A stretch of 64,000 bases of DNA. It comes from Modicisalibacter tunisiensis. Lineage in GTDB: Bacteria > Pseudomonadota > Gammaproteobacteria > Pseudomonadales > Halomonadaceae. Positions 199 to 62,637 of this stretch are shown here, in pieces; position 1 is the stretch's first letter, and each line of letters opens with the position of its first letter. Location: assembly GCF_020148005.1 (NCBI RefSeq), contig NZ_JAGXFD010000002.1, forward strand, positions 1-64,000, read 5' to 3'. The notes under the pieces were generated by a model. It searched no databases. It had not been told where the DNA came from and saw nothing but the letters and a program-made list of their open reading frames with translations. Both the position numbers and the translations under genes were made by a program.

Positions 199-1197
199 AT
201 GCGACTCATCCAGTATGAACACGAGGGCCGCCCGCAGGTGGCGGTGGTGGAAAGTCCCGACCGGGTGCGTCGGGTCGCGGCCGACGAGGGCACCTACGGC
301 CTGGCACGCCGCGCCATTCGCGAGCGGCGCTCGCTGGCCGCGGTGGTCGAGTCGGCACTGACCGAGGAGCGGCTCGACTACGCCGAGCTGGTCCGCGAAC
401 ATCGCCTGCTGCCCCCGCTCACCCATCCCGACCCGGCTCACTGCCTGGTCACCGGCACCGGCCTGACGCACCTGGGCAGCGCCGATACCCGCTCGGCCAT
501 GCATGCCAAGGCCCAGGCCGACGAGAGCCAGCTGACCGACTCCATGCGCATGTTCAAGCTGGGTGTCGAGGGCGGCAAGCCAGACCCGGGCCGGGTCGGC
601 GCGCAGCCGGAATGGTTCTACAAGGGCGACGGCGACTGCGTGGTCGCCCCCGAGGCCGACATCCCGGTGCCCGCCTTCGCCGCGGACGCCGGCGAGGAAC
701 CGGAGCTGGCGGGGCTCTACGTGATCGACGAGGCTGGCCAGCCGTGGCGAATCGGCTATGCTGTCGGCAATGAATTTTCCGACCACGTCACCGAGCGCCA
801 CAATTACCTGTGGCTGGCCCACTCCAAGCTGCGCGCCTGCAGCTTCGGTCCCGAGCTGCTCGTCGGTGAGCTGCCCCACCATCTCGAGGGCACCAGCCGC
901 ATCGTCCGCGACGGCAAGACGCTGTGGGAGAAGCCGTTTCTCACCGGCGAGGCCAACATGGCCCACAGCCTCGCCAACCTCGAGCATCATCACTTCAAGT
1001 ACGCCGGCTTCCGGCGTCCCGGCGATGTCCATGTGCACTTTTTCGGCACCGCGACATTGAGTTTTGCCGACGACGTCCGCACCCGGGAGGGAGATCGCTT
1101 CGAGATCGAGATTCCGGTCTTCGGACGCCCCCTGCGCAACCCGTTGTGCTTCGAGGCCACGGATGTCGAGACCGCGACATCCGTCAACACGCTCTAA
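199..1197 (+). CDS. AraD1/GguC-type FAH-fold protein, probable 2-keto-3-deoxy-L-arabonate dehydratase-like
   Basis: 332 aa protein of the fumarylacetoacetate hydrolase fold, GguC/AraD1 branch, recognised by its LTHLGSADTRSAMH segment (near residue 90) and the AQPEWFYKGDG segment. Members next to sugar-acid genes are proposed to dehydrate 2-keto-3-deoxy pentonates to alpha-ketoglutarate semialdehyde, and the next gene here is exactly the dehydrogenase for that product (27-base gap). The start chosen is ATG at 199, with a GGAG 7 bases upstream; an in-frame GTG at 154 would overlap the end of the TRAP permease. Acidic residues in GEEPELAG are the likely metal ligands. Substrate stereochemistry is inferred from context only. 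Confidence 0.75.
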   Translation: MRLIQYEHEGRPQVAVVESPDRVRRVAADEGTYGLARRAIRERRSLAAVVESALTEERLDYAELVREHRLLPPLTHPDPAHCLVTGTGLTHLGSADTRSAMHAKAQADESQLTDSMRMFKLGVEGGKPDPGRVGAQPEWFYKGDGDCVVAPEADIPVPAFAADAGEEPELAGLYVIDEAGQPWRIGYAVGNEFSDHVTERHNYLWLAHSKLRACSFGPELLVGELPHHLEGTSRIVRDGKTLWEKPFLTGEANMAHSLANLEHHHFKYAGFRRPGDVHVHFFGTATLSFADDVRTREGDRFEIEIPVFGRPLRNPLCFEATDVETATSVNTL

Positions 1198-1224: not shown

Positions 1225-2802
1225 ATGACCCTGGAAGGCAAGCAACTCATCGGCCAGCAGGCGGTGCGCGGCACCCGCGGCGAGATCCAGGCCATCAATC
1301 CGTCGTCCAGCCAGGGCCTGGAACCGGTCTATGCCGGCGGCACCCCGGACGACGTCGCGCGGGCCTGCGAGCTCGCCGAAGCGGCGTTCGACACCTACCG
1401 CGAGACCTCGCTGGAGGAGCGCGCCACCTTCCTCGAGACCATCGCCGAGGAGATCGAGGCGCTGGGCGATGCCCTGATCGAGCGCGCCAGCGACGAGTCG
1501 GGCCTGCCGATTCCGCGCATCGAGGGCGAGCGCGGGCGTACCTGCGGCCAGCTCAGACTGTTCGCCAATGTCGTGCGCGCCGGCGAGTGGCTCGACGTGC
1601 GCGTCGACCCGGCCCTGCCCGAACGAGCGCCGCTGCCGCGGGCCGACCTGCGCCAGCGCCACATCGCCCTGGGCCCGGTGGCGGTGTTCGGCGCCTCCAA
1701 CTTCCCGCTGGCGTTCTCGGTGGCCGGCGGCGACACCGCCTCGGCCCTCGCCGCCGGCTGCCCGGTGGTGGTCAAGGCGCACTCCGCCCACCCGGGTACC
1801 AGCGAACTGGTGGGCCGGGCCATCCAGAAGGCCGTGGCCCGCTGCGAGCTGCCCGAGGGCGTGTTCTCGCTGCTCTATGATGCCGACATCGAACTCGGTC
1901 AGGCGCTGGTCGCCGATCCGCGCATCAAGGCGGTGGGCTTCACCGGCTCGCGCCGCGGCGGCCAGGCGCTGGTCGCCACCGCCCAGGCGCGTCCCGAGCC
2001 GATCCCGGTCTACGCCGAAATGAGCGCGATCAACCCGGTGTTCGCCCTGCCCGCGGCGCTCGAGGCGCGCGGCGAGAGCATGGCCGAGGGCTTCGTCGGC
2101 TCGCTCAACCTGGGCGCCGGGCAGTTCTGCACCAACCCGGGGCTGGTGATCGCGGTCAAGGGCCCGGCACTCGACACCTTCGTCGAGGCCGCCGGCCGGG
2201 CGGTACGCGACAGCGCCGGCCAGACCATGCTCACCCCGGGCATCCATGATGCCTACACCCGCGGCGTGGACAACCTGGCGAATCATGACAGGACCCGCGA
2301 AGTGGCCCGTGGCCAGGCCGGCGAGCAACCCAACCAGTGCCGGCCGGGGCTGTTCGTCACCGCGGCGGCCGACTTCCTCGCCGACGAGGCGCTGCAGGCC
2401 GAAGTGTTCGGTGCCACGTCGCTGGTGGTCGAGTGTGCCGACGAGGCGGAAGTGCGCCAGGTCGCCGAGCACCTGGAGGGCCAGCTGACCGCCACGCTGC
2501 AGCTGGACGACGCCGACCACGACAGCGCCCGCGCGCTGCTGCCGATCCTCGAGCGCAAGGCGGGGCGGATCCTGGTCAACGGCTGGCCGACCGGGGTCGA
2601 GGTGTGCCACGCCATGGTCCACGGCGGGCCCTACCCGGCGACGTCGGACTCGCGCACCACCTCGGTGGGCAGCGCGGCGATCCAGCGCTTCCTGCGCCCG
2701 GTGTGCTACCAGAACCTGCCGGATGACCTGCTGCCGGAGGCGCTCAGGGAAAGCAACCCGTACCAGCTCAACCGCCTGGTCGACGGCCGGCGCGAGGGCT
2801 GA
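1225..2802 (+). CDS. Alpha-ketoglutarate semialdehyde dehydrogenase (2,5-dioxovalerate dehydrogenase)
   Basis: 525 aa aldehyde dehydrogenase of the NADP-preferring KGSADH group, which oxidises 2,5-dioxopentanoate to 2-oxoglutarate, the last step of non-phosphorylative pentonate and hexarate pathways. Catalytic residues are visible: Asn159 ([11 protein letters not shown]), Glu265 ([11 protein letters not shown]) and Cys302 ([10 protein letters not shown]). Start is ATG 1225 behind an AGAAGGAGA box. It follows the AraD1-type gene and ends just before a strong terminator hairpin at 2836-2863. A mutilated, almost identical copy lies at 58628-58817 next to the galactarolactone genes, so this intact enzyme may serve both modules. 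Confidence 0.92.
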
Positions 2803-58602: not shown

Positions 58603-58627
58603 AGCCGGCGACGCGCCCCCGGAACAG

Positions 58628-58655
58628 CGACGGGACGGCCGAAGCCGTCCCGTCG
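58628..58655. terminator. Terminator hairpin matching the KGSADH one
   Basis: 12-bp stem CGACGGGACGGC / GCCGTCCCGTCG with CGAA loop. Same stem as at 2836-2863. It serves as terminator for the UspA gene and is also the 3' end of the KGSADH remnant on the minus strand. Confidence 0.75.
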
Positions 58656-58676
58656 AGGTCATGGTGGCTCGGCGGC

Positions 58677-58817
58677 TCAAGCGCCGCTCTCGCGGGTCTT
58701 GTCATGATTCCAGACCGGTTCCAGGCGCTGGCTGGACGACGGATTGATGGCCCGGATCTCGCCGCGGGTGCCGCGCACCGCCTGCTGGCCGATGAGTTGC
58801 CTGCCTTCCAGGGTCAT
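58677..58817 (-). pseudogene. Internally deleted remnant of the KGSADH gene
   Basis: A 46-codon ORF remains. Its first ~35 codons are nearly identical at nucleotide level to the start of KGSADH at 1225 (3 differences in about 106 bases: residues K6R, Q22R, G31R). It then jumps to a short piece like codons ~353-358 (NHDRTRE) and next to the 3' end of the gene; downstream, the KGSADH 3' UTR and its terminator continue (58628-58676). So two deletions removed most of the gene, including Cys302 and Glu265. It can make at most a short peptide; an RBS (GGGAGAGG) is still present. Confidence 0.85.
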
Positions 58818-58848
58818 GAGCCTCTCCCGTGTCGGTGAAAAATGAAGG

Positions 58849-59583
58849 TCATTGGCGATAGGAGGCGTAGTTGTCGCGAGCCCGCGTCAGGTGATAGCGC
58901 ATGGCCTCGCGGGCTGCCTCGACCCGCCGCGCGAGGATCGCGTCGAGAATCTCGGCGTGCTCCTCGCCGACCCGCTCGAGATAGCGTCGCGTGGCCTCGA
59001 CATCCAGCTCGACGTCCAGCAGCTTGGCCCGGGGAATCGCCCCCTGGTCGAACTGCTCGTAGAAGGTGGCGAAGGCCGGATTGTGCGTGGCGCGGGCGAT
59101 CGCGAAATGAAACACGAAGTCTTCCTCGCGTGCCTGGGAGTTGTCCCGGCATGCCGTCACGAAAGCCTGATGCGCCACCTCGAGGCGACGGCGATCCTCG
59201 GCATCGTGACGGGCCGCCGCCAGGGCCGCCGCCTCGGGTTCCAGCGTCAGGCGCAGCTCCAGGATATGCAGGATGTCCTCGACGGTGGTCAGGCTGATGC
59301 GCTTGGCCGGCAACGCCTCGAGCGGCGTCGCACGCAGCACCCGGGTGCCGATGCCGCGCCGCGTCTCGACCAGCCCCAGCGACTTGAGATGCGTGATCGC
59401 CTCGCGGACCACGGTGCGGCTGACCCCGAACATCTCGCACAGGGCATTCTCCGGCGGCAGCTTGTCGCCGACGGCGATGCGCTGCTCGCGGATCAGCTGC
59501 TCCAGCTGCTTCGAGACCTGGCCCGAAAGACTGCCCGACTGCGAGACACGTGAGACACCGAGCTGATTCATTGCTTGTTCCAT
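58849..59583 (-). CDS. GntR-family regulator, FadR subfamily, beside the galactarolactone operon
   Basis: 244 aa. Winged helix at about residues 25-90 (LPPENALCEMFGVSRTVVREAITHLKSLGLVETRRGIGTRV pieces), followed by the FCD domain with the metal-binding DFVFHFAIA and VGEEHAEILDAI / AMRYHLTRA. Likely sensor of an aldarate or uronate for the upstream genes. Start taken at ATG 59583; ATG 59571 is equally possible. Separated from udh by 165 bases, so its own promoter is probable. Confidence 0.83.
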   Translation of the reverse strand: MEQAMNQLGVSRVSQSGSLSGQVSKQLEQLIREQRIAVGDKLPPENALCEMFGVSRTVVREAITHLKSLGLVETRRGIGTRVLRATPLEALPAKRISLTTVEDILHILELRLTLEPEAAALAAARHDAEDRRRLEVAHQAFVTACRDNSQAREEDFVFHFAIARATHNPAFATFYEQFDQGAIPRAKLLDVELDVEATRRYLERVGEEHAEILDAILARRVEAAREAMRYHLTRARDNYASYRQ

Positions 59584-59748: not shown

Positions 59749-60549
59749 TCAGGCATCATCGGGATGCCCCGCCGCGGCGAACTTGCCGCCCTGGTAGACA
59801 ACGACCGGGTCCTGCGGGTCCAGGCCGGTGTCCCGGGCCTCGACCTGCGCGCGCCAGGGCTCCGAGCTGTCCCGAGGGCGCCAGCCGAGGAAGCTCGACT
59901 TGCGGTTGTCCCACCACGTCTCGCTGTTGTCCGAGACCCCGTAGATCACCGTATTGCCCAGCTTCGGCGTGCAGAAGGCGCGCTGCAGCAGGGCCACGAA
60001 GTCATCGACACTCATCCAGGTGGCCATCATCCGCGTATCCGCGGGTTTGGGGAAACAGGAACCGATGCGCACGCTCAGCGTCTCGACCTCGAACTTGTCG
60101 AAATACAGGCTGGCCAGATCCTCGCCGAAGCACTTGGAAACGCCATACAGTGAATCGGGCCGGTGCGGCACCTCGGTGTCGAGGGTCTGCGTGCGCGGGT
60201 AGAAGCCGATAGCGTGGTTGGAGCTGGCGAACACGATGCGGGGCCGGCCGGCATGACGAGCCGCCTCGTAGAGGTTGTACGTGCCGACGATGTTGGCCTG
60301 CAGGATGTTCGCCCAGGGCTTCTCGACGGACATTCCGCCCAGGTGCACGACCGCCTCGCAGCCCTCGACCAGCGAGCGCACGGCCGACGCCTCGGCCAGA
60401 TCGCAGGCCACGGCCTCCTCGTGCTCGCCGAGGGGGTCCACCTCGACGATGTCGGAGACCCGCACCCGCCTCGCCAGGCGATGCAGGTGCGGACGGATGG
60501 CCTTGCCGACGCCGCCGGCGGCCCCCGTGACAAGAATTCGCTTGAGCAT
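59749..60549 (-). CDS. udh: Uronate dehydrogenase
   Basis: 266 aa NAD-dependent epimerase/dehydratase-fold protein. Cofactor motif VTGAAGGVGKAIR (residues 7-19), catalytic Tyr135 and Lys139 (SLYGVSKCFGED) and SSNHAIGFYPR, which match characterised uronate dehydrogenases that oxidise D-galacturonate or D-glucuronate to the aldarolactone. Last catabolic gene of the minus-strand operon with galactarolactone enzymes upstream. Start ATG 60549 follows AAGGAGGA. Confidence 0.9.
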   Translation of the reverse strand: MLKRILVTGAAGGVGKAIRPHLHRLARRVRVSDIVEVDPLGEHEEAVACDLAEASAVRSLVEGCEAVVHLGGMSVEKPWANILQANIVGTYNLYEAARHAGRPRIVFASSNHAIGFYPRTQTLDTEVPHRPDSLYGVSKCFGEDLASLYFDKFEVETLSVRIGSCFPKPADTRMMATWMSVDDFVALLQRAFCTPKLGNTVIYGVSDNSETWWDNRKSSFLGWRPRDSSEPWRAQVEARDTGLDPQDPVVVYQGGKFAAAGHPDDA

Positions 60550-60603: not shown

Positions 60604-61467
60604 TCATTCGAAGCCGTACAGGGCCGCCGGATTGTCGACCAGGATCCGCTGCCGAGCCTCGGCATCGGCCCAGTCCAGCAGTATGTCCAGCTGTTCGGCA
60701 TCATCGGGATACTCGGCGCGGGGTACTCCGACATGCGGCCAGTTGCTGCCCCAGATCACCCGCTCCGGCGCGTGGCGAATGATCCGGCGGGCAATGGCGC
60801 CCACATCCGCGTAGTCGGGCCCGCCGGTGACGCTCGCCTCGTAGCCGCCGCAGATCTTGAACCAGGCGTTGCCGCGATCCAGCAGCCGAACGATGGCGTC
60901 GACGCGGTAGTCGTCGGCGGGTACCGGTGGCATGAACTTGCCGATGTGATCGATGATGTAGTCGCCCTCGAGACGCTCGAGGCCGTCCCGGTAGGTATCC
61001 AGGTGACGGCCGTTGAACTGCACCATCAGGTGCCAGCCGAAGGGCCGGATACGCCGCTCGACGGCGGGCATGTCGGCATGGGTGACGGCGCCGCCGGGCA
61101 GGTTCATGACCCGCGCTCCGCGCACTCCCCGGTCGTGCCAGTCACGCAGCTGGGTCGACGGAGTCTCGGGCGTGACCGCCGCCACGCCGCGAGCCGTCTC
61201 GCCCAGCCGGTCGAGCGAGGCCAGCAGGGCACCGTTGTCCTGCTGATAGGCATTGGACTGGGTCACCACCACCCGCTCGAGTCCCAGGCGCTGCTGGACA
61301 CGCCGGTAGTCCTCGACGGTGCCCAGCTCGGCGATGGCGGGCCCGCCGGGCCGGGAGGGAAAGCCCGGCGGATAGAGGTGAATGTGGCAGTCGGTCGCCC
61401 CGGCCGGCGCCGTCAGCCGGGGTGGCGGCCCGTCCAGGGGCCGGGTATTGGCGGGAATCGCGATCAC
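60604..61467 (-). CDS. Amidohydrolase, D-galactarolactone isomerase-like
   Basis: 287 aa TIM-barrel amidohydrolase of the 2-pyrone-4,6-dicarboxylate lactonase-like group. Metal and active-site motifs: DCHIHLYPPGFPS near the N-terminus and VIWGSNWPHVGVP with the catalytic Asp region. Location directly after the cycloisomerase matches the Agrobacterium GLI-GCI pair; GLI converts the 1,4-lactone to the 1,5-lactone or the reverse for GCI. The start is a GTG (61467), two bases after the gci stop, with AAGGAGG upstream. Confidence 0.78.
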   Translation of the reverse strand: MIAIPANTRPLDGPPPRLTAPAGATDCHIHLYPPGFPSRPGGPAIAELGTVEDYRRVQQRLGLERVVVTQSNAYQQDNGALLASLDRLGETARGVAAVTPETPSTQLRDWHDRGVRGARVMNLPGGAVTHADMPAVERRIRPFGWHLMVQFNGRHLDTYRDGLERLEGDYIIDHIGKFMPPVPADDYRVDAIVRLLDRGNAWFKICGGYEASVTGGPDYADVGAIARRIIRHAPERVIWGSNWPHVGVPRAEYPDDAEQLDILLDWADAEARQRILVDNPAALYGFE

Positions 61468-61469
61468 CG

Positions 61470-62606
61470 TCAGGCCTCCTTCAGCGCGTGCCGGCGCAGC
61501 GCATCGTGGTTGATCTCGATGCCCAGCCCCGGGCCGTCGGGGATCGTGACCACGCCCTCGACATGCTCGAGGGGCGAGGTCACCACCGCCTGACGGAAGG
61601 GGTTGCGGGTGCGATCGAACTCGAGAATCGGCTCGATAGGCCGGCGCCGCGGCGGGTTGGGCGGCAGCGCCGCCAGGAACTGGAGGCCCGCGGCGATGGC
61701 CACCGCCGTTCCCCAGACATGCGGCACCAGCCGCACGCCGTGCATGGCGGCCATGTCGACGACACGCCGGCTCTCGGAAAACCCGCCGACGCCACAGACA
61801 TCCGGCTGGATGATATCGACCGCCCGTGATGCCAGCGGCTCCTGCATGGCATAGCGGCCATGCCAGTTCTCGCCGCTGGCCACCGGGACCGGCTGCCCCT
61901 GGCGCACGGCACGATAGGTATCGATCTGCTCGGGCAGCACCGGCTCCTCGAACCAGTCGACGCCGAGCTCGGCCGCCCGTCGCCCCACCTCCAGCGCCTC
62001 GAGCAGGTCGTAGCCGTGATTGGCGTCGATCATCAGACGGCACTCGGGACCGATCGCCTCGCGGGCGGCGGCGATGACCGCCATGTCTTCCTCGACGCCG
62101 AAACCGATCTTGATCTTGACGCCGTGAAAGCCTTCCCGGACGTAGCCGGCGACCTCCTCGGCGACGTCCTGCACCCGGTCGACGCCGTCGCGGCGAAACG
62201 AGCCGGTGGCGTAGGCCCGCACGCGGTCACGAAAGCGTCCGCCCAGCAGCTCCGAGACCGACGCGCCGTAGTGCTTGCCCTTGATGTCCCACAGGGCGAT
62301 GTCGATGCCGCTCAGCGCGGTCATCGTCACGCCGCGCTGCCCCTGGTCGCGCAGCCGGTTGTAGAGTTCGAGCCAGCGCTTCTCGGTCTCCAGCGGGTTG
62401 CTGCCGATCAGACCGGCCGCGTAGGCCCGGACGATCACGGCGTTGATCGTCGCCGGGCCCAGGCACTCGCCCCAGTCGACGGTTCCATCCTCGCAGACGA
62501 TCTCGACGAGACAGTGCTGGCGCCGCTCGAAGCGCATCGAGGCGCTCTCGAAGGCCTGATCGAGCTTGTAGTCGAGAATATGCGTATTTACGGCGGCAAT
62601 TTTCAT
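61470..62606 (-). CDS. gci: D-galactarolactone cycloisomerase (enolase superfamily)
   Basis: 378 aa, closely similar to Agrobacterium GCI as far as recalled (MRFERRQHCLVEI, GVTMTALSGIDIALWDIKGKHYGASVS, RAYATGSFRRDGVDRVQDV). Active site: Lys-x-Lys in FHGVKIKIGFG, Asp in MIDANHGY, Glu in WFEEPVLPEQ and GENWHG, and His in VPHVWGTA. Converts galactarolactone to 3-deoxy-2-keto-hexarate. ATG 62606 chosen (378 aa, as in the relative); another in-frame Met is 7 codons earlier. Four genes of TRAP and lactone metabolism form one minus-strand operon. Confidence 0.9.
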   Translation of the reverse strand: MKIAAVNTHILDYKLDQAFESASMRFERRQHCLVEIVCEDGTVDWGECLGPATINAVIVRAYAAGLIGSNPLETEKRWLELYNRLRDQGQRGVTMTALSGIDIALWDIKGKHYGASVSELLGGRFRDRVRAYATGSFRRDGVDRVQDVAEEVAGYVREGFHGVKIKIGFGVEEDMAVIAAAREAIGPECRLMIDANHGYDLLEALEVGRRAAELGVDWFEEPVLPEQIDTYRAVRQGQPVPVASGENWHGRYAMQEPLASRAVDIIQPDVCGVGGFSESRRVVDMAAMHGVRLVPHVWGTAVAIAAGLQFLAALPPNPPRRRPIEPILEFDRTRNPFRQAVVTSPLEHVEGVVTIPDGPGLGIEINHDALRRHALKEA

Positions 62607-62637
62607 GGCACTCGAATTCCTGGTCATGAGTTGTCGG

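Follow-up and report, generated by a model that had tools for sequence, protein, structure and literature searches.

Genes and features of the locus

The window, i.e. the whole 64,000-nucleotide stretch that was analysed, belongs to one strain of the Halomonas family (genome G000) and carries two places related to a single aldehyde dehydrogenase gene (Table 1). At one place the gene is intact and follows a gene of the AraD1 family; at the other only a relic is found, on the minus strand, directly behind a GntR/FCD regulator gene and facing a convergent Usp-like gene, a name that is to be taken loosely (26 bits versus an NCBIfam cut-off of 166). Upstream of the relic, the regulator is preceded by a uronate/galactarate cluster, which presumably also includes a TRAP transporter and which continues just beyond the window into the gene of KdgD.

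Table 1. Coordinates of the relic, its intact paralogue and the accompanying genes.
Feature	Position	Strand	Remarks
AraD1/GguC family protein	199..1197	+	Upstream of intact paralogue; NCBIfam GguC, 545.9 bits versus cut-off 340
Intact paralogue, probable alpha-ketoglutaric semialdehyde dehydrogenase (KGSADH)	1225..2802	+	Aldehyde dehydrogenase family, Pfam Aldedh
3′ fragment of relic	58607..58689	-	Corresponds to gene 2801-2884 (last two bases of stop codon plus 3′ UTR); 77/84 identical, one gap
Hairpin, 12-bp stem with TTCG loop	58628..58655	-	Between relic and convergent Usp-like gene; no T tract
46-codon open frame of relic	58677..58817	-	5′ 35 codons of the gene, in-frame middle fragment and TGA of the old 3′ UTR; by translation
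Middle fragment of relic	58690..58711	-	Corresponds to gene 2279-2300, codons 353-358 plus parts of 352 and 359; 20/22 identical
5′ fragment of relic	58712..58818	-	Corresponds to gene 1224-1330; 104/107 identical
GntR/FCD regulator gene	58849..59565	-	Directly upstream of relic; Pfam GntR and FCD
Probable uronate dehydrogenase	59749..60549	-	Pfam Epimerase; putative name, no curated NCBIfam cut-off reached
Amidohydrolase	60604..61467	-	Pfam Amidohydro_2
Enolase-superfamily enzyme, probable galactarolactone cycloisomerase	61470..62609	-	Pfam MR_MLE domains; putative name, below NCBIfam cut-offs
KdgD	65580-66452 (just beyond window)		Same cluster; 400 bits versus cut-off 374

The intact gene affiliates with PF00171 (2.1e-47), and among proteins of solved structure only 3v4c and 1eyy were related to it at E up to 1e-20. 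It scored below the cut-off of NF042993, the NCBIfam model of alpha-ketoglutaric semialdehyde dehydrogenase (87.1 versus 770 bits); as other KGSADH types exist, the name given here rests on pathway context, and the names uronate dehydrogenase and galactarolactone cycloisomerase are likewise putative assignments. The product of KdgD is alpha-ketoglutaric semialdehyde. KdgD dehydrates and decarboxylates its substrate, as described in the accessible part of PMC5114784. In the searched sequence of the genome, the gene at 1225 was the only close full copy, and the others were the relic and aldehyde dehydrogenases of 27-30% identity. The cell would therefore rely on the distant copy at 1225, as the earlier note had supposed, and the uronate/galactarate cluster has here no intact dehydrogenase of its own from this family, which matters for pathway annotation.

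The two ends of the contig (window 1-165 and C2 306582-306744, L202) are inverted copies with 95% identity over 163 bases. We take them to be the last part of a TRAP transporter gene, lying before the AraD1-family gene at one end and before a galactonate-dehydratase-like gene at the other; this near-identical pair may have broken the assembly.

The relic consists of three ordered fragments of the dehydrogenase gene

By pairwise alignment, three pieces of the intact gene matched the minus strand of 58607-58818 in their original order, with the similarity starting 1 base 5′ of the start codon. From the letters alone, the earlier note had recognised the same three parts, namely the first ~106 bases with three differences, a short internal piece around 2276-2300 and the 3′ end, and the alignment bore out all of them (Table 1); its span of 58628-58817 covers the aligned core, while the homology reaches about 58607. 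A two-sequence BLAST comparison gave E-values of 3e-49, 3e-30 and 8e-6, the match with 8e-6 comprising 52 columns that begin in the middle piece.

The middle piece was compared with 2,000 random sequences from a first-order Markov model of the gene interior, among which the best agreed at 16/21 positions versus 20/21 of the piece itself. Scanning the whole window on both strands with up to 3 mismatches returned the two expected sites only (expectation 0.00 from 100 shuffles), so the match is not due to chance similarity, the weak point that the earlier note had named for its own reading. Furthermore, the middle piece reads AAG..GAG and the intact gene AGG..GAA; the copy in G011 has the same codons AAG..GAG, and AAG is also found in most other copies displayed at this codon. 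Matching the relatives rather than the intact paralogue, the middle piece appears to be the fossil of a genuine copy.

The 5′ and 3′ pieces are 92-97% identical to the intact gene, with 3 differences in 107 positions of the former and 7 in 84 of the latter (not clearly different, Fisher p 0.11). In the 5′ piece, each of the three single-base differences alters an amino acid, too small a number to read selection from; two of them are derived in the relic and one in the intact gene. In intact-gene coordinates, ~948 bp (1331-2278) and ~500 bp (2301-2800) are missing. The first loss preserves the reading frame and the second breaks it, so that the open frame of the relic spans 46 codons and closes with a TGA derived from the former 3′ UTR. 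The relic thus lacks codons 36-352 and about 359-525, which presumably hold the catalytic residues of the family. As aligned, the second join shows at most one shared base, hence nothing that would point to a deletion mediated by repeats; since the parent copy of the relic is lacking, the junctions are accurate to a few bases, and the first join is not exact. The two missing stretches agree with the two deletions proposed in the earlier note, and would have been lost in two separate events.

Downstream of the frame, the exact 20-base core of the hairpin occurs at two places only, the relic locus and the intact-gene locus, in the genome outside contigs C4-C8 (10,873 of 3,550,803 bases, which were N where examined). 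The earlier note had called this stem a terminator; the stem is there, but it lacks a T tract and the terminator scan did not call it.

A function of the relic was also considered: its short frame could be a genuine peptide gene, or its transcript an RNA that has its 5′ end in common with the dehydrogenase mRNA, such as a decoy for a regulator of that mRNA. The start codon with the purine-rich stretch before it is retained, 46 codons are open, the hairpin is kept, and the folding of the segment 58600-58700 surpasses that of 200 shuffles (z -3.27), all of which would suit such a role. However, a fold is expected here anyway, because the intact gene has the hairpin in common; the 46 amino acids matched no Pfam or NCBIfam family at E up to 0.001, and Rfam gave nothing at E up to 1 for the locus spanning the relic (L001). 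The short form was also absent from all relative copies readable beyond the deletion point; a conserved short ORF in relatives is what the earlier note had named as speaking against decay. A functional peptide or RNA from the relic lacks support, and we regard either as very improbable. The same holds for the more particular idea that a transcript ending the GntR operon, with the 5′ coding end of the dehydrogenase and the 3′ hairpin, would titrate a regulator or an RNA of the intact gene, which we consider highly unlikely.

The same locus in other genomes of the genus

The locus was compared in 13 other genomes of the genus, discarding protein matches of ≤33% identity. The uronate dehydrogenase-GntR cluster was seen in five of them (G002, G004, G006, G008 and G009). 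G006 has a full dehydrogenase at this place. In the nearest relative, G002, the cluster dehydrogenase is open over 279 codons up to the contig end, and in G008 over 38 codons, likewise to a contig end. In G004 and G009 the GntR gene is followed ~50 bases on by a convergent permease gene, with no dehydrogenase between (L209 and L210); the gene was either lost there or gained in the other genomes. The full gene that the earlier note expected at this place in relatives was therefore found in G006 and, as far as the contigs reach, at no fewer than 279 and 38 codons in G002 and G008, but not in G004 and G009.

The flanks of the relic are well conserved in G002: the GntR side aligned at 90% over 1,290 columns, including the 5′ piece of the relic, and the Usp side, located on a different contig, at 93% over 658 columns, with a 96% match of the Usp-like gene. 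The G002 dehydrogenase copy ends with its contig and the remainder was absent from the searched assembly, so that G002 may or may not have lost the gene; an AraD1-family gene was not found in G002 at E 1e-40. Both ends of the G002 contig C45 (L023 and L024) partly match elsewhere in the genus, being partly interspersed repeat. One repeat, whose conserved edge spans 42 bases, is scattered across several genomes of the genus (L088, L090, L092, L095, L096 and L098, as well as both ends of C45); the copies displayed hold a palindrome close to TTTGCCATCCATGGCAAAGG, and no Rfam match was obtained at E up to 1 for the three loci L088, L095 and L023.

Beyond the cluster itself, a dehydrogenase behind a GntR gene of any kind was found in 8 of the 13 genomes (G001, G002, G004, G006, G008, G009, G010 and G011). 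In G011 the gene, of at least 186 codons up to a contig end, follows a GntR close to the window's, and the uronate dehydrogenase was not found in the 6 kb read; in G010, 172 codons up to a contig end follow a GntR of the G006 type; a more distant GntR (56-60% to the window's) precedes the gene in G001, G004 and G009 as well as at a second site of G008. Taking all eight as the same place was rejected, as the GntR genes of G001, G004 and G009 are distant (56-57%) and G004 and G009 also have the cluster without the gene. No dehydrogenase match was obtained in G003, G005, G007 and G012 at E 1e-100, and at the dehydrogenase locus read for G013 (L152, which agrees with the G013 contig in length and over a 100-base match) no GntR stands beside the gene.

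The short form of the window was unseen in any relative copy readable beyond the deletion point; the G009 copy behind the other GntR stops before this point, and the G008 cluster copy ends three codons after it. A candidate short relic behind a GntR in G009 was rejected, as a 10-base N gap follows 33-34 codons there and the GntR is not that of the uronate dehydrogenase cluster.

The regulator of the window is 93% identical to that of G002 and 87% to that of G011, and only 61-63% to the cluster GntRs of G006, G008, G004 and G009, so that this place has had no simple history; the GntR may have been exchanged at the cluster. The GntR genes of the window, G002 and G011 form a group of their own with 85-93% identity.

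Gene copies lie at contig ends or at an N gap in G002, G004, G008, G009, G010 and G011, and a mis-join of two nearly identical copies in the assembly could be thought to have created the relic as well. The breaks elsewhere are contig ends or an N run, though, and the relic is an internal join with bases of its own in all three pieces, which makes an artefact of this kind hardly credible. Because the dehydrogenase pair coincides with contig breaks in several drafts, copy counts from drafts may be low.

Homogenised pairs of dehydrogenase copies

G006 carries the pair at the same two loci as the window, and its copies are 99.2% identical to each other and both ~80% from the window's. The G011 pair is 99.5% identical over 558 nt. 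In G004, the second copy being behind a different GntR, the pair is 94.3% identical and uneven, with 35-codon blocks that range between 75 and 100%. The pairs of G006 and G011 are more alike than copies between genomes, third positions included, which stand at 74-94% in the table of comparisons (G014, of the same family, included), with the exception of the window's intact copy versus the GntR-linked copy of G002 (95%). In a tree of 90 copies, the G006 pair and the G004 pair each join with a support of 1.0. The same tree places a dehydrogenase copy of Pseudomonas sp. (L182) with the window's copy (support 0.993), which may reflect horizontal transfer.

For the window's own pair, the comparison of paralogues is limited to the short relic. 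Here, the relic has the base of the intact gene at three positions (20, 39 and 86) at which a different base is common to G002 and the two G011 copies.

Outside the genus, 80 named loci were compared (the best 80 of at least 551 relatives from one scan of genome contigs), with protein matches below 38% identity discarded. Among these 80, a GntR gene stands directly upstream of the dehydrogenase in 24 loci, 12 of which also have the uronate dehydrogenase, i.e. full dehydrogenase, GntR and uronate dehydrogenase in a row, and 7 of which have a convergent permease gene downstream; an AraD1-family gene stands directly upstream in 22. Both settings are thus widespread in the family and probably old. 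Fourteen species have two or three copies in these best 80 of at least 551 loci, and in three of them (zhangzhouensis, niordana and aerodenitrificans) the copies of the pair are closest to each other. The pairs of other species are as low as 67-70% identical, and the two settings are at 70% in Vreelandella sedimenti and V. zhanjiangensis. Homogenising is seen in some lineages, and conversion is not general.

History of the relic

The likeness of relic and intact gene probably stems from gene conversion between older copies rather than from a recent duplication. We propose that the relic is a pseudogene remnant that arose by gene conversion in this lineage followed by two deletions in the GntR-linked copy, as an ordinary case of gene decay, and put the probability of this reading at about 0.91. 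The starting state would be two dehydrogenase genes 56 kb apart and inverted, one behind the AraD1-family gene and the other behind GntR, the latter closing the uronate/galactarate cluster. After the split from G002, gene conversion would have made both copies nearly identical; deletions of ~948 bp and ~500 bp, probably as two events, would afterwards have stripped most of the GntR-linked copy, leaving a frame of 46 codons plus the hairpin at the 3′ end. Semialdehyde from either pathway would presumably be oxidised by the intact copy.

Alternatively, the lineage of the window and G002 could have received a recent copy of the 1225 gene behind GntR, which later decayed with no conversion involved. 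The 5′ ends being 97% identical is what a recent copy would give, and the cluster in G004 and G009 without the gene allows a gain of the GntR-linked copy. Three points count against it. The gene occupies the uronate dehydrogenase-GntR place in G006 and G008 as well as in the 12 named loci, of several genera, among the best 80 of at least 551; the G006 pair, alike within its genome and remote from the window's, would call for the gene to have been inserted there once more, independently; and relic and intact gene have bases in common that are absent from G002 at the same place. We therefore consider a recent copy improbable, if somewhat less so than a functional relic or a mis-join. The earlier note had left recent duplication and conversion side by side; conversion is now favoured, by the pair identities, the tree and the common bases. 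Altogether, the earlier note is right on the sequence and largely right on the history.

Relation to known systems

The relic is an ordinary pseudogene with a good record of its steps, and gives a small, clear case of a gene pair that was probably homogenised by conversion before one member was lost. Similar stages can be seen side by side: the full pair in G006, the relic in the window, and the cluster without the gene in G004 and G009. Among the titles listed in a literature search none names the relic, which is no proof of its being unpublished. In the main text of PMC6053082, aldehyde, dehydrogenase, Halomonas and pseudogene are not mentioned.

Bacterial pseudogenes arising where a redundant paralogue has undergone deletion resemble the relic in their truncated frame, their fragments in order and an intact homologue elsewhere in the genome, and also in the longer copy of a relative whose flanks align. 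There is no difference in kind, except that the 5′ and 3′ fragments of the relic are 92-97% alike to the intact gene, probably from the earlier gene conversion. As to the preceding step, gene conversion and concerted evolution of prokaryotic paralogues are described, in the accessible part of PMC6053082, as making copies within a genome more alike than those between genomes. The pairs of G006 and G011 behave as described there, whereas homogenising is seen here in some lineages only.
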